Below are positions 25,333-55,561 of a stretch of DNA of 62,674 nucleotides, one piece after another (the first letter of the stretch is position 1; each line of letters opens with the position of its first letter). A program made the position numbers and the translations under genes. This DNA comes from a virus. The notes beneath the pieces were generated by a model. It had not been told where the DNA came from and did no database searches. It saw nothing but the letters and a program-made list of their open reading frames with translations. The stretch spans positions 1-62,674 of IMG/VR virus record IMGVR_UViG_3300006802_000103, one strand, 5' to 3'.

Positions 25333-25396
25333 CATTCACGGCGGGGGTTACTGTTCCCCGCATACACAGAGACGAATGTGCGCCGTGAAATCGTCC

Positions 25397-25426
25397 AAGG
25401 CGGTGAAAAGCCGCCACCTTTTTTTT
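25397..25426 (+). terminator. Intrinsic terminator just before the sigma-like gene
   Basis: GGCGG, loop TGAAAAG, CCGCC, ACC and eight T residues. The ATG at 25432 lies 5 bases past the T run. It ends the SSB-candidate message and would block expression of the sigma-like gene unless read through. Confidence 0.8.
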
Positions 25427-25431
25427 CCAAA

Positions 25432-25890
25432 ATGCACCTCGACAAAGATGAAATCCAGCAACGACAAACAATCGCGACATGGAAGGCTGAGAAAACCTGG
25501 GATGGAATTCACGACCTCGAAAGTCGCATCGACTATCGCCGCCGGATGGAATTTCTGGACTACTGTCGCGAGGAGCTTCGACGCGCGCAGCGCCTTGGTT
25601 GGTTGTTGGACGAGGAGGGAAATAGCCGACTCGAAGATGCAATCGAAGCGTCTGTCACGCCCGCCGACGTGGTAAGCCGGGTGTTGATACAAAGCGCAAT
25701 CGAGCAGTTAAAACCGCGCGAACAGGAAATGCTAACTCTCTTCTACTTCCAAGGCTGGTCCCAAGCTGAAATAGCCAGGAAGTACGGAATCGGGGAAAGC
25801 CGGGTAAGTCAAATCTTCAAACACGCCTACGGGCGGATGAAAGGGTATTTATGCCAAAGTTCTTCTTCACAGTCATCCTTGGCGCGGTAG
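25432..25890 (+). CDS. Sigma70 region-4-like transcription regulator
   Basis: 152 residues. Residues 88-140 read AIEQLKPREQEMLTLFYFQGWSQ, then AEIARKYGIGESRVSQIFKHAYGRMK, a clear region-4 helix-turn-helix of FliA-type sigma factors. The first 80 residues are helical and acidic/basic mixed, with no recognisable region 2. Phage late activators with a region-4-like fold (RinA/ArpU type) are the closest comparison. The ATG at 25432 has no Shine-Dalgarno; a GTG at 25378 would place the terminator inside the coding region. Candidate late-gene switch. Confidence 0.8.
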   Translation: MHLDKDEIQQRQTIATWKAEKTWDGIHDLESRIDYRRRMEFLDYCREELRRAQRLGWLLDEEGNSRLEDAIEASVTPADVVSRVLIQSAIEQLKPREQEMLTLFYFQGWSQAEIARKYGIGESRVSQIFKHAYGRMKGYLCQSSSSQSSLAR

Positions 25891-26204
25891 GTTTGGCAGC
25901 GCAGGATTCAGTCACGCTCACGGTTACCGAGGGAGGGGTGGCGAAAACCACCACCATCACCGGGAACGCCGCGACGGAGACGATTAAGGTTTTGAAACAC
26001 CTGAACGGCGTGTTTAACACTGGCGAGACGACTGTCATCCAGGCCATCCGCCGTCTTGTATACCTTCAGATTCAAGCCAATGCGTATGAAGCCACCGGGA
26101 CCGCTATCAAAGCCGCGACCGATGCGGAGAAGCAGGCGGCTACAGCGCGCGTGGCGGCTGAGAAGACCCTAGAGACGGGGTTCCTGACCGCGCCGGTTCA
26201 GTGA
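25851..26204 (+). CDS. Small exported protein
   Basis: 117 residues overlapping the sigma-like gene by 40 bases. MPKFFFTVILGAVGLAAQDS is a standard Sec-type signal with a cleavage site after LAA. The mature part is beta-rich at first (VTLTVTEGGVAKTTTITG) then helical and Ala/Thr-rich. No family recognised. An exported product encoded overlapping a transcription regulator is unusual and may be a host-envelope effector. Confidence 0.5.
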   Translation: MPKFFFTVILGAVGLAAQDSVTLTVTEGGVAKTTTITGNAATETIKVLKHLNGVFNTGETTVIQAIRRLVYLQIQANAYEATGTAIKAATDAEKQAATARVAAEKTLETGFLTAPVQ

Positions 26205-50848: not shown

Positions 50849-51253
50849 TTAATTTGGAGTAAACGGCGTAGTACCAGCAGTCGGGACCGTCAGCGTGGCG
50901 CTCGGCGGGGATGCAGTCGAGGAGGTAACAGTCCAGACTGCTGAAGGGCCTGCTACTTGACGACCGGTGGAGTCGTAGTACCAGGAGATGTATTTCGTGT
51001 TCGGCGGCGTGATGTCGGCGTTCCAGAGAATGCCTATGCCGGAGGAGAAGGTCCCGTTTACGATGGGGCAGACGAGGAAGTCGGGGACGGGGACTTGGGG
51101 GAAGGAGTTGGAGAAGACGGCTTCAGTGTATGAGCCGGTGGAAGGGAGGACTAGGGAGACGAGGAGAAAGCCGTTGAAATTGGTCGCGTCGGACCACTGG
51201 ACTACGGTTGATTGGTCGAAGGTTGCGTAGCGCGTGGGGGAAGCGGCGGGCAT
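50849..51253 (-). CDS. Small beta-rich tail protein
   Basis: 134 residues, leaderless after TACAATAG. All-beta pattern with aromatic residues (VQWSDATNFNGFLLVSLVLPSTGSYTEAVFSN, YISWYYDSTGRQV) and a Ser/Thr/Pro-rich end. Resembles small fibre-associated proteins. Probably virion surface. Confidence 0.55.
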   Translation of the reverse strand: MPAASPTRYATFDQSTVVQWSDATNFNGFLLVSLVLPSTGSYTEAVFSNSFPQVPVPDFLVCPIVNGTFSSGIGILWNADITPPNTKYISWYYDSTGRQVAGPSAVWTVTSSTASPPSATLTVPTAGTTPFTPN

Positions 51254-51260
51254 TGCATAT

Positions 51261-51268
51261 CTATTGTA
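51261..51268 (-). promoter_or_regulatory. Late-type -10 box TACAATAG
   Basis: Minus-strand box 9 bases before the ATG at 51253. It restarts late transcription after the exported-protein cassette. Confidence 0.65.
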
Positions 51269-51276
51269 TCGGGACG

Positions 51277-51462
51277 CTAGTCGATTCTATTTATCATCGC
51301 GATATCGACGTACTCGCTCCCCTGAATCCCGAGAAAATGAGCGAACTCTTCCATCGACAGCGAGCATTTGACGATAGTCATGGTCAGTCTCGGATAGGTT
51401 GGTTCGGGAACCCAAGCGCCGGGACAAACTGCGAGGAGTCCGAAGAGTGAGCGGCGGGTCAT
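51277..51462 (-). CDS. Small protein with RR signal, exported cassette member
   Basis: 61 residues, ATGA overlap. MTRRSLFGLLAVCPGAWVPEP is a twin-arginine-like signal (TRRSLF). The remaining 40 residues contain MTIVKCSLSMEEFAHFLGIQGSEYVDIAMIN, a small alpha/beta piece. No family recognised. Last gene of the cassette. Confidence 0.55.
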   Translation of the reverse strand: MTRRSLFGLLAVCPGAWVPEPTYPRLTMTIVKCSLSMEEFAHFLGIQGSEYVDIAMINRID

Positions 51463-51704
51463 TTTGAATACCGGTACCAATAAAGCGTCTTGCCCGAGGC
51501 AGGCGGGAATCGAACTGTCCTCTCGCATACTTCGCGGAATAGGAATTTCTTCTGCAATCGGTCCCGGGCTTTCTGGCTTATGTACAAAGTCCAGGCTGTC
51601 CGTAGCGGCGGGATCGACTGAACTACAGCCGGAGGTAATTTTGCGATGACCGTTTGGGCCGCCGCTGTGCCGAGAAGTGCTGCTAGAAATCCGCGTCTTT
51701 TCAT
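51459..51704 (-). CDS. RR-signal protein carrying a capsid N-arm-like segment
   Basis: 81 residues, ATGA-type overlap. MKRRGFLAALLGTAAAQTVIA is a Tat-like signal. The end KARDRLQKKFLFREVCERT followed by GKTLYWYRYSK aligns with the major capsid protein (KALSRLQKKFRFRDLC, then GRTAVWFRYAN) with the same spacing. The match covers about 37 residues and stops at the end of this protein. It may be a truncated capsid-gene copy fused to an export signal, or a capsid-interacting decoy. Confidence 0.6.
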   Translation of the reverse strand: MKRRGFLAALLGTAAAQTVIAKLPPAVVQSIPPLRTAWTLYISQKARDRLQKKFLFREVCERTVRFPPASGKTLYWYRYSK

Positions 51705-51856
51705 TTCTGCTTCGGCTCCTTCCAGATAAACATCGAAGCCTCAATCCGCGCCAGATCCATTTCGTTAATCGCGAAAAGTTCAGGTAGCGGCTCGACCATT
51801 CCTTCGAGACTCTTTACGGCTTCTCGGATCTGTTCAATGGTTAGCTTTTCAGGCAT
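51701..51856 (-). CDS. Small helical protein of the exported cassette
   Basis: 51 residues from the ATG MPEKLTIEQIREAVKSLEG; the frame stays open to a TTG at 51985 and an ATG at 51889 that overlaps a 14-codon upstream frame as TGATG. Purely helical and acidic, ending FIWKEPKQK. The start is uncertain. A sigma70-type promoter lies about 130 bases upstream. Confidence 0.45.
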   Translation of the reverse strand: MPEKLTIEQIREAVKSLEGMVEPLPELFAINEMDLARIEASMFIWKEPKQK

Positions 51857-51981
51857 GTGAAAGAGCGAGGAGCGGGGGCTTATTCTCATCAGACGGCAGG
51901 TCGGCCCAAAGTAGGTCGACCAAGCTGAACCCGCATCCCTCCGGTACAACCCGGAGATTCTGCTTAAACTATCCTCGCTTT

Positions 51982-52419
51982 TCAAGTGTAGCGTGGCGGC
52001 GGTTGGAAGTCAACCTCCCTCCACTCTCCCGCGAAGCCCTTCCAGTTCTGGAGTGGAAATTCGACCGCCGGTAGGTCTTTCGACTGTCCTATAAGTTTCG
52101 CGGGATCGGGATTCCGCATCGCAGCCCATCCGCCCGACTCGAATCCGGTCTCTGTGGCCCATTTATGGACGCAGGAGGCCGAGCAGAAGTATCGGCCATA
52201 CGGTTGTTCATAAAGGCGCGGGAGCGGAACAGTAAAGCCCTTCGGAACCCACGGCTGCGGTCTTGTATCCAAAAGTACCCCGCAGCAGGAACAACCCCGG
52301 ACATACCCTGGCGGCGGCGGTGGTATGAATTTATCTCGGAGTTTACCTAATTGCGGAACCAAAAGCGCCTTCCCGATAACCGGAAGGCTGAGGAGGGAGA
52401 GGAAGAAGCGTCTTTTCAT
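51982..52419 (-). CDS. RR-signal zinc-binding exported protein
   Basis: 145 residues. MKRRFFLSLLSLPVIGKALL is a Tat-like signal (KRRFFL). CSCCGVLLD and, about 40 residues on, RYFCSASCVHKW form a treble-clef or TRASH-like zinc site. The rest is Pro/Trp-rich. The Shine-Dalgarno GAGG lies in an inverted repeat (TTGAGG with CCTCAA) abutting the ATG. A folded metal-binding exported protein is what Tat substrates usually are. Confidence 0.6.
   Translation of the reverse strand: MKRRFFLSLLSLPVIGKALLVPQLGKLRDKFIPPPPPGYVRGCSCCGVLLDTRPQPWVPKGFTVPLPRLYEQPYGRYFCSASCVHKWATETGFESGGWAAMRNPDPAKLIGQSKDLPAVEFPLQNWKGFAGEWREVDFQPPPRYT
51985..52013 (-). promoter_or_regulatory. Early sigma70-type promoter inside the late block
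   Basis: TTGACT (52008-52013), 17-base spacer, TACACT (51985-51990) on the minus strand, overlapping the stop of the gene at 51982. It serves the genes at 51856 down to 51277. Its leader contains CTCCGG-GTTGTA-CCGGAG. Confidence 0.65.
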
Positions 52420-52446
52420 TGAGGTCTCTGCCTCAACGATAGCAGA

Positions 52447-52716
52447 TTACTTCCCCAACCACAACAGGGAAGCCCAAATTCCCACAGCAGTCCCGGTCGC
52501 TCCACCCAAGGTGTACCCCGCGAAACCCCAACCGCCGCTCTCCTCCTTCGCGATCTTCTTAATCACAAACCAGTTTGCTGCGCCGAATATGACATCAACT
52601 AGGACTGACTTTGCGATATCTGCTTGGGCAACTGCTCTCCAGGAGATGCAAACGACTCCGTAGGTCCAGAACTGGAGGGCGAAGAAGGTGAGGAAGTTTT
52701 TGATATTGGTCGACAC
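52447..52716 (-). CDS. Small multi-span membrane protein, cassette first gene
   Basis: 89 residues from the GTG 6 bases after a TACACT box. Hydrophobic segments FLTFFALQFWTYGVVCISW, SVLVDVIFGAANWFVI and a Gly-rich YTLGGATGTAVGIWASLLWLG give two or three membrane helices. The host-type promoter, right after the capsid terminator, marks it as a moron-like gene. Holin is an alternative. Confidence 0.6.
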   Translation of the reverse strand: MSTNIKNFLTFFALQFWTYGVVCISWRAVAQADIAKSVLVDVIFGAANWFVIKKIAKEESGGWGFAGYTLGGATGTAVGIWASLLWLGK

Positions 52717-52722
52717 GATTGA

Positions 52723-52751
52723 AGTGTAGCAAATCTGCGCGCGGGAGTCCA
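52723..52751 (-). promoter_or_regulatory. Sigma70-type promoter of the exported cassette
   Basis: TGGACT (52746-52751), 17-base spacer, TACACT (52723-52728), 6 bases to GTG 52716. Confidence 0.6.
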
Positions 52752-52790: not shown

Positions 52791-52819
52791 AAGAAAAAGC
52801 CCCGACCGAAGCCGGGGCT
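52791..52819 (-). terminator. Intrinsic terminator after the capsid gene
   Basis: AGCCCCG pairs with CGGGGCT, and the minus strand continues CTTTTTCTT. It ends the single-gene capsid message about 20 bases after its stop. Confidence 0.85.
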
Positions 52820-52840: not shown

Positions 52841-53824
52841 TTAGGCGATTGTCGATTGCGCGTCAATCGTCTTGGCGCGGAAGGAACCACCGATACCCGT
52901 CGGACCATCCAACCAAAGCGCCGAGTAGAGGTAGCGGTACGATACCCAGCCACCGATCATCCCTTCCGGATCGAACCCGGACGGGACGCCGCCCTTGACG
53001 ACCTTGATGTTGAAGTTCTCCTTCGACGGGTCGGTCACCTTCGCGGGGGCAGCACCGGCCAGGGTCAAGCAGCCGAAAGCGCCGTTGCCGAAGATATAAG
53101 TGCGCCATTTGTTCGGCGAGGTCGAGGAGTAGACATTCGTGGACTCGATGACCTTCGCACCGGCGACATGGGTCACAACGCCCCGGTCGTCGCGGGAGAC
53201 GAGGTTGGCTTTCTGCGGAGTCGTGTATTTGAAGATATCCGCGAGACCATTGGCCGCAGGGTCGGACACGAGGTCGTAGGAGTTGTACGGCGAGGTCAGG
53301 ACCTTGAACTCACCGTCTTCGAACGGTTCGACATCGATGGCTTGCAGAGTGTGGACCGCCGCGCGGATGTCGCTGACACGGAGGTAGGTCGCGATGGGGG
53401 ACTGATTGGTGTTCGAACTCTCAGCGTCAATAGCCGCGCGGGTGATATTGTCTACCGACAAACCGCCACGATAACCCAAGAGAGTGCCAGCGGCTTCCAA
53501 CTGCGGGTCGGGCGCGGTCTCTTCGCGAAGGGTCGAGACGGAAATGAAGTTCGAGAACTCCGAAACCGTAGCCGCGACCTTCGTCGAGGTCATCGTGAGG
53601 GAAGTGCCGACTGCGCCTTCGGTGGAAGGAGTCGTCCCGGCGGCGAGGTTGGCGTAGCGGAACCAGACAGCCGTCCGGCCTTCGCGCATTCCCAACTGAT
53701 CCTCAACGCAGAGGTCGCGGAAACGGAACTTCTTTTGAAGCCGGGAAAGCGCCTTTCGACGGATTGCTTCCGACTGAAGATGGGCTAGGCCGAGGGTAGT
53801 ATTACCTGCGGGAGCGTAAGCCAT
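52841..53824 (-). CDS. Major capsid protein, N4-gp56 type
   Basis: 327 residues. N-arm with RRKALSRLQKKFRFRDLC, then GRTAVWFRYANLAAGTTPSTEGAVG, VAATVSEFSNFISVSTL, DPQLEAAGTLLGYRGGLSVDNITRAAI: the order and motifs of the HK97-fold N4-gp56 capsid family. The scaffold gene is upstream. Own late box, strong AGGAGATTT site, 5' hairpin and own terminator imply the highest late expression. No delta domain or protease site is visible. Confidence 0.88.
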   Translation of the reverse strand: MAYAPAGNTTLGLAHLQSEAIRRKALSRLQKKFRFRDLCVEDQLGMREGRTAVWFRYANLAAGTTPSTEGAVGTSLTMTSTKVAATVSEFSNFISVSTLREETAPDPQLEAAGTLLGYRGGLSVDNITRAAIDAESSNTNQSPIATYLRVSDIRAAVHTLQAIDVEPFEDGEFKVLTSPYNSYDLVSDPAANGLADIFKYTTPQKANLVSRDDRGVVTHVAGAKVIESTNVYSSTSPNKWRTYIFGNGAFGCLTLAGAAPAKVTDPSKENFNIKVVKGGVPSGFDPEGMIGGWVSYRYLYSALWLDGPTGIGGSFRAKTIDAQSTIA

Positions 53825-54724: not shown

Positions 54725-55031
54725 CTATAGCCAATTCTTCCGCCGCCCCCTCCTGCACAGTAGCAGGCCCTTCAACATCATACTTCGACCGGAACTCCTC
54801 TACAAGCTGTCGCTCGTGGGATTTGAGAACCCGCAAGATGTGGCGGTAGGCTTTCATGAAGGAGACGAGTTTCCGCTCCTCTTCCGCGCTCATCTCCCAC
54901 GACTCCAGCCGGGTGACTAAGTTGTCCGCTTCCGATTGGAGGACATCGAGGATCAGTTTACCTCCGGGGGAGGCGAGGGCGAGGTACATTTGCTCGCGGT
55001 CGTAGGTGGTTATTTCGCGTGGTTCAGCCAT
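54717..55031 (-). CDS. Small helical protein between portal and scaffold
   Basis: 104 residues from the ATG at 55031, overlapping the 3' end of the exported protein gene. Long charged helices (LILDVLQSEADNLVTRLESWEM, RHILRVLKSHERQLVEEF) and an acidic end. Possibly an assembly cofactor. No family recognised. Confidence 0.5.
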   Translation of the reverse strand: MAEPREITTYDREQMYLALASPGGKLILDVLQSEADNLVTRLESWEMSAEEERKLVSFMKAYRHILRVLKSHERQLVEEFRSKYDVEGPATVQEGAAEELAIVE

Positions 55032-55525
55032 TTGCTTAGTGTATTCTCCAGCCACTCTTTTCTTGCACGCGCCATTTCTGGTGCTCCGGAGTCGGTTATT
55101 TCCGCAGGAGAGGGGATTCGGTCAGCACGCCAGCTACCTAAGCAAACACTTGACCTAATAGGCTCTCCGTCGGCAGTCAGAATCCACATTTGTTCCCCCC
55201 GCGACCCTTTTTTGACGATAACAACTCTCGCGCGATACACCCCCTCGGGGTCATCCATGCAAGGCACAATCGGCGCGTAGGTGCAATTTTCAAACACATC
55301 CGTCCTTCGGAAATTGTGTGAGTGAATAATGGTTTCCTCAGAAACCCAAATTATTTTAGGAAACTTAGCCTCCCACCGGAGTTTTTCGACGAAGGCACAG
55401 TTATAGGTGTGTTCTTCGATTGTGGATGCGCTGTAGTTCCATCTGGGCAGGGAGCGCTGCGTGGTTGCTGCGGCGGGTAGGAGAGAGCAGCCGAAAGCCG
55501 CTCGTAGGAAATTTCTTCGAAGCAT
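55010..55525 (-). CDS. RR-signal exported protein, moron-like
   Basis: 171 residues from the ATG at 55525. MLRRNFLRAAFGCSLLPAAATTQ is a Tat-like signal (RRNFL) with AAA cleavage. The mature part is beta-rich with Cys at several positions (YNCAFVEKLRW, FENCTYAPIVPCMDD, SSVCLGSW), probably disulfide-bonded in the envelope. Its own TTGACA promoter inside the late block marks it as a moron. No family recognised. Confidence 0.6.
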   Translation of the reverse strand: MLRRNFLRAAFGCSLLPAAATTQRSLPRWNYSASTIEEHTYNCAFVEKLRWEAKFPKIIWVSEETIIHSHNFRRTDVFENCTYAPIVPCMDDPEGVYRARVVIVKKGSRGEQMWILTADGEPIRSSVCLGSWRADRIPSPAEITDSGAPEMARARKEWLENTLSKWLNHAK

Positions 55526-55531
55526 ACCTGG

Positions 55532-55561
55532 AGTATACCCCGGCCACGCCGGGTCTGTCAA
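55532..55561 (-). promoter_or_regulatory. Sigma70-type promoter of the moron-like gene
   Basis: TTGACA (55556-55561), 18-base spacer, TATACT (55532-55537), 6 bases to the ATG at 55525. The best consensus promoter of the late block. Confidence 0.75.

Follow-up and report, generated by a model that had tools for sequence, protein, structure and literature searches.

Analysis of the window, a 62,674-nt stretch of viral DNA (IMG/VR record IMGVR_UViG_3300006802_000103), showed five small minus-strand genes between the terminator of the major capsid gene (52819-52798) and a late-type box (51268), as originally predicted. The predicted content of this cassette was likewise found: three genes for proteins with an RR-type signal at the start (RR1, RR2 and RR3) and a gene for a small membrane protein of roughly three spans, accompanied by one signal-less gene. 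The last three genes (the signal-less gene, RR2 and RR3) are joined by 4-nt stop/start overlaps. With TTG 51985 as its start, the signal-less gene would share 4 nt with RR1 as well. A second insert, absent from the original prediction, consists of the RR4 gene, which separates the portal gene from the next head gene. Judged by its sequence, the phage is otherwise standard and podovirus-like, with an SU10-type portal. The features are collected in Table 1.

Table 1. Features of the two inserts and their surroundings in the window, and signal-bearing proteins in relatives
Feature	Coordinates	Strand	Description
Portal gene	57827-55563	-	SU10 portal (Pfam, 2.2e-24)
Sigma70-type promoter	55532-55561	-	TTGACA-18-TATACT, 11/12; directly past portal stop, 6 nt before RR4 ATG
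RR4 gene	55010-55525	-	171 aa; MLRRNFLRAAFGCSLLPAAATT...; second insertion
Major capsid protein (MCP) gene	52841-53824	-	phrog_1357 major head protein, 3.5e-15; backbone neighbour of the cassette
Intrinsic terminator of MCP gene	52798-52819	-	9-bp stem, loop 4, T-rich tail TTTTTCTTTCT; left border of the cassette
Putative sigma70-type promoter	52723-52751	-	TGGACT-17-TACACT, TG before -10; 6 nt before membrane-protein GTG
Small membrane-protein gene	52447-52716	-	89 aa, GTG start; about three hydrophobic spans in the sequence
RR1 gene	51982-52419	-	145 aa, MKRRFFLSLL; RR-type N-terminus MKRRFFLSLLSLPVIGKALL, then Cys-rich domain (CSCCG...YFCSASC)
Promoter-like site	51985-52013	-	TTGACT-17-TACACT; inside RR1 end
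Signal-less small gene	51701-51985	-	51 aa (ATG 51856) or 94 aa (TTG 51985)
RR2 gene	51459-51704	-	81 aa, MKRRGFLAALL; RR signal (about residues 1-21) and capsid-arm copy (residues 39-81)
RR3 gene	51277-51462	-	61 aa, MTRRSLFGLL; MTRRSLFGLLAVCPGAW...; mature part short, acidic
Late-type box	51262-51268	-	TACAATA; precedes next backbone gene (51253)
Backbone gene past cassette	50849-51253	-	34-50% identity to genes in L014, L015, L030, L038 and L040
Sec-signal tail-fibre/tailspike-like proteins of relatives	L014 15510-17693; L015 14731-17145; L030 2927-4084, 5445-7409; L038 11475-12536

The GC content of the inserted genes was somewhat lower, at 0.48-0.57 against 0.54-0.62 in core genes. Their codon fit was below that of core genes and lowest in RR2 and RR4. 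Searches of the inserted genes against PHROG, Pfam, PADLOC and NCBIfam gave no match above noise to an exclusion or defence family, so that the superinfection-exclusion identity first suggested for them is not tied to any specific family. The membrane protein matched no family, holin families included, and had no phage homologue; it is possibly a holin or a membrane protein of the superinfection-exclusion type. No family match was found for the signal-less gene or RR3. RR1 reached zf-FCS in Pfam at E = 0.8 only, and its Cys-rich domain is perhaps metal-binding. Homologue searches with RR1, RR4 and the membrane protein in phages, and with RR1 and RR4 in IMG/VR as well, returned only the same virus or nothing. 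The RR genes are known from one genotype; an identical contig, 3300025889_001157, may share or be linked to its sample. The backbone gene past the cassette gave no match in a family search, and its position suggests a tail-fibre adaptor-like protein.

Transcription signals and the same region in relatives

Within the late block, the late strand carried eight matches to the pattern TA[CGT]AATA, and seven of these stand a short way ahead of backbone genes. The opposite strand had two over its entire length, and chance predicts about three for each strand across the window. A sigma-factor-like protein encoded at 25378-25890 (+) (phrog_351, 4.8e-10) might read these late boxes. No such box was found before the inserted genes, whether in the cassette or at RR4. 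The box at 51268 suggests that backbone transcription would restart past the cassette.

Two sigma70-type promoters had been proposed to drive the cassette, and of the predicted features these were the least secure. The putative site before 52716 had some support: its score of 9, including the extended -10, was reached in 1 of 300 simulated upstream regions. The site at 52013-51985, presumably the second one proposed, did not rise above chance, the scan having returned two such sites where 1.1 were expected in shuffles. The best sigma70-type score of the late block belonged to the RR4 promoter, and a score above 9 was not reached in any of 300 simulated regions. In both RR4 and the membrane-protein gene, 6 nt separate the end of the -10 element from the start codon, so that their transcripts would be leaderless or nearly so. 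A terminator was sought at the right border of the cassette and none was found; the one at the left border belongs to the capsid gene.

Three relatives (L013, L014 and L015) have portals 58-59% identical and the same backbone order, an order kept in about 20 relatives where it could be read. The gap from the portal to the next gene is about 12 nt in these three, and here it is filled by RR4. The gap between the MCP gene and the next gene is about 218 nt in L014, compared with 1587 nt here. The RR genes were absent from L013-L015 and from some 20 more relatives identified by their capsid protein, as far as the stretches present in these often short contigs reach. Another contig, IMGVR_UViG_3300042691_030931, shows 90% terminase identity and breaks off within the portal gene. 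The relatives show short gaps or unrelated genes at both spots, which indicates that the two inserts are accessory. The moron-like character originally assigned to the cassette agrees with these gaps, short or differently filled, and with the lower GC, the host-type promoters and the lack of late boxes.

In L030, L038, L014 and L015, proteins with Sec-type signals were encoded past the capsid gene or past the next backbone gene. Their sizes were 385, 88, 45 and 654 aa in L030, 353 and 103 aa in L038, and 727 and 804 aa in L014/L015. Several contain domains of tail-fibre or tailspike-like type (phrog_9942, 6e-17; Beta_helix, 2e-9; K1-lyase_C, 7e-6, just under the cut-off). Across the relatives, signals called by a crude predictor were modestly enriched downstream of the capsid gene (18 of 202) over upstream (3 of 147; p = 0.01, an optimistic value because the contigs are related). 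The presence of Sec-signal proteins at the same region in several relatives suggests that envelope-directed accessory genes recur there. Different RR proteins had been anticipated in the same slot of relatives and were not found; Sec-type signals, or nothing, occupied it.

Two further observations were made in these contigs. The L014 and L015 spikes have differing signal sequences and share the end AQSSTKVTIVP, as if signal function alone were conserved. Directly past the capsid gene of L030 (2463-2828) lies a gene whose product has a Tlde1 domain of the L,D-transpeptidase type (Pfam, 3.4e-14).

Phage_integrase and Resolvase domains were sought in the record, which may be incomplete, and none was found; the phage may be lytic. 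The classical, prophage reading of a moron is weakened by this result. Lysogenic conversion was down-weighted for the same reason, and expression in lysogeny, originally envisaged for the cassette as an alternative to early expression, is doubtful. The closest cultivated MCP was that of Tunturiibacter phage Tunturi_3, and its 28% identity was judged too weak for an Acidobacteriota host link. Two bacterial-genome scans, with the capsid and the terminase, found no relative.

Export signals and the role of the inserts

The N-termini were examined with a motif test rather than a trained predictor. The test combined the TatP expression, RR.[FGAVML][LITMVF] (PMC6085387), near the N-terminus with at least 13 uncharged residues. 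Applied to all ATG ORFs of the 62.7 kb, it returned three matches, RR2, RR3 and RR4, all of them within the two inserts; 0.18 ± 0.43 matches were expected in simulated sequence. The RR starts are thus more frequent than expected by chance. RR1 has the Tat motif but only 12 uncharged residues, one short of the threshold. Of the Tat-type starts claimed for the cassette, those of RR2 and RR3 passed this motif test, as did that of RR4, whereas RR1 narrowly missed. On this evidence, Tat would be the most likely route of the RR2, RR3 and RR4 proteins into or through the inner membrane, and the inserted genes appear to encode proteins addressed to the host cell envelope, probably via Tat.

The N-termini could instead be Sec signals or signal anchors in which the twin arginines are incidental, a possibility to be taken seriously at somewhat less than even chance. 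It concerns the route only and is compatible with an envelope-directed role. Sec-type signals are found in the same region of relatives, RR1 is strongly hydrophobic (mean 2.3 over 9 residues), as Sec signals are, and the small mature parts of RR2 and RR3 need no folding before export. However, the arginines are set in RRxFL in RR1, RR2 and RR4 and in RRSLF in RR3, the RRNFLR of RR4 is near the S/TRRxFLK consensus, and the crude predictor did not score RR2-RR4 as Sec-like.

Signals of these kinds were also seen elsewhere. An unrelated viral contig (L005, 5995-6213, +) encodes a 70-residue protein with the signal MKRRGFLASLLATA followed by a tail-fibre-like segment (AGAISGSEIAACAVTADKIAAGSIVSAKLNI). 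The resemblance of its MKRRGFLA signal was put down to convergence between signals. In the early region of the window, a protein at 25851-26204 (+) has an apparent Sec signal (MPKFFFTVILGAVGLAAQDS...).

On balance, we consider it probable, with some reserve, that the five genes and RR4 form a moron-type, envelope-directed accessory set within the late block. Host RNA polymerase would transcribe the inserted genes early, with no dependence on late transcription. The RR proteins would pass through the inner membrane or lodge in it and, together with the membrane protein, would alter the envelope of the infected cell. The likeliest role that we infer, by analogy with known exclusion proteins of the envelope, is superinfection exclusion at that level, or host takeover. 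No family, structure or phage homologue pointed to a particular envelope function.

The main rival is lysis regulation, because an endolysin gene (49881-49423; Peptidase_M15_3, 1.6e-11) and a gene for a one-span coiled-coil protein (50839-50555) follow 0.5-2 kb downstream. The cassette would then be a lysis-accessory module, with the membrane protein as holin and the signal-bearing proteins as antiholin or spanin-like regulators. The 89-aa membrane protein and its roughly three spans are compatible with a class I holin, and the T4 antiholin RI, which has a cleavable signal peptide, offers a precedent for an exported lysis regulator (PMC8385771). We regard this as unlikely, however. L014 and L015 retain the coiled-coil gene and the endolysin without any of the five cassette genes, between the cassette and the lysis genes stands a backbone gene that has a late box itself, and RR4 is at least 3 kb away. 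A host-type early promoter would also be odd for lysis genes, and the proposed holin matches no holin family.

RR2 and the arm of the capsid protein

Behind its RR signal, RR2 carries a divergent copy of the N-terminal arm of the MCP: its residues 39-81 align to about residues 20-59 of the MCP. BLASTP gave 5e-8 to the phage's own MCP and values down to 1e-11 to MCPs of relatives, and a search against a capsid-arm profile gave 9.8e-13. When IMG/VR was scanned with a degenerate DNA pattern for QKKFxFR[DE]xC, only RR2 and the capsid genes of this family matched. Ten aligned capsid proteins have 13 invariant positions between residues 26 and 59, of which RR2 keeps 10, and the conserved MCP residues retained include RLQKKF.F, G49, R56 and Y57. 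It differs from the family MCPs (phrog_1357) in the signal placed in front and in the absence of the other 268 residues. As RR2 holds about 40 of the 327 MCP residues, and no complete capsid protein, its sequence indicates that it is unable to form a capsid subunit. No RR2-like protein was found in other relatives.

RR2 and capsid genes use the same codon at about 30-70% of their shared residues, a level roughly as low as that among capsid genes themselves. With so few shared codons (codon change being near saturation), the similarity appears old and held at the amino-acid level. Retention of 10 of 13 invariant residues despite scrambled codons argues for selection on RR2. RR2 also scored higher against MCPs of other lineages (51 bits with that of L038) than against the phage's own MCP (35 bits). 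AlphaFold models of the capsid protein from 6 and 10 sequences were unusable (pLDDT 28.6 and 27.8), so that assignment of the segment to the N-arm rests on its position and on a weak PDB profile match to 9d82 (E = 0.0014 with 6 sequences, 0.47 with 10).

In two distant relatives (L081, 3234-5295, and L076, 3445-5286) the capsid gene is broken near codon 57 by an insert of about 0.8-1.1 kb. The insert has a LAGLIDADG-like ORF and is intron-like by eye, had no Rfam match, and lies near the end of the RR2 homology. We considered that RR2 may mark an intron boundary; the same site also falls within a highly conserved stretch of the capsid gene.

The similarity to MCPs raises the alternative that RR2 is a capsid-assembly inhibitor or decoy, which would block the assembly of competing phages or occupy a host sensor that recognises capsid protein, while its RR segment would tether it to the membrane. 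The conserved MCP residues kept in RR2 and its closeness to the MCPs of other lineages would suit such a function, and prophage-encoded interference with virion assembly is known from Tab (PMC10884400). This reading nevertheless seems improbable. The positive N-terminus and hydrophobic stretch predict that the capsid segment would not end up in the cytoplasm, where capsids assemble; no more than about 40 residues are left, in one known genotype; and Tab targets tails rather than capsids. More speculative still, and doubtful in our estimation, is an exported or membrane-tethered mimic of the capsid arm, derived from another lineage and held under selection as an inter-phage weapon or decoy.

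It is also improbable that the RR genes are neutral recombination debris including a broken capsid gene copy, with RR stretches arisen by chance: RR1, RR4 and the membrane protein have no homologues, RR3 has no family match, RR2 is a truncated copy and codon fit is under that of core genes, but the RR starts cluster far beyond chance, several frames are open and tightly joined by ATGA overlaps, the RR4 promoter is near consensus, and RR2 keeps its invariant residues at a codon sharing as low as that between capsid genes.

Comparison with known phage systems

As a proposed moron-type, envelope-directed set, the inserts share several traits with the morons of lambdoid phages and P22 pid: extra genes in a late operon, a host-type promoter, a lower GC content, and absence from close relatives; one border of the main insert also has a terminator, that of the capsid gene. 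They differ in that no sign of lysogeny was seen here, several RR-signal genes are present in two separate inserts, and the promoter geometry is of a leaderless type. P22 SieA and the Ltp lipoproteins of Streptococcus thermophilus phages are likewise small phage proteins aimed at the membrane or cell surface. No sequence relation to them was detected, and the signals here are of RR type, whereas those systems use lipoprotein signals or plain membrane spans. T4 RI resembles the RR proteins as a phage protein with an N-terminal export signal that is expected in the periplasm, but it uses Sec, and the cassette is missing from relatives that keep their lysis genes. Like the role considered above for RR2, Tab involves an accessory gene interfering with the virion assembly of another phage, although it acts on tails. 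To our knowledge, Tab is neither a virion-protein fragment nor an exported protein.

In the open-access literature searched, neither a group of Tat-type accessory proteins encoded by a phage nor a chimera of an export signal and a piece of capsid protein was described; export signals on several accessory genes of a phage are rarely reported. If the RR proteins are real, they would provide short proteins for directly testing the use of Tat by phages and the role of virion fragments in competition between phages. Should the capsid-arm mimic prove true, export signals on pieces of virion proteins would be a way of excluding competitors, and the Sec-signal tail-fibre/tailspike-like proteins of relatives would represent the same strategy applied to other virion parts. 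For this uncultivated phage family, the comparisons suggest that the stretch past the capsid gene is a changeable slot, often with envelope-directed genes.
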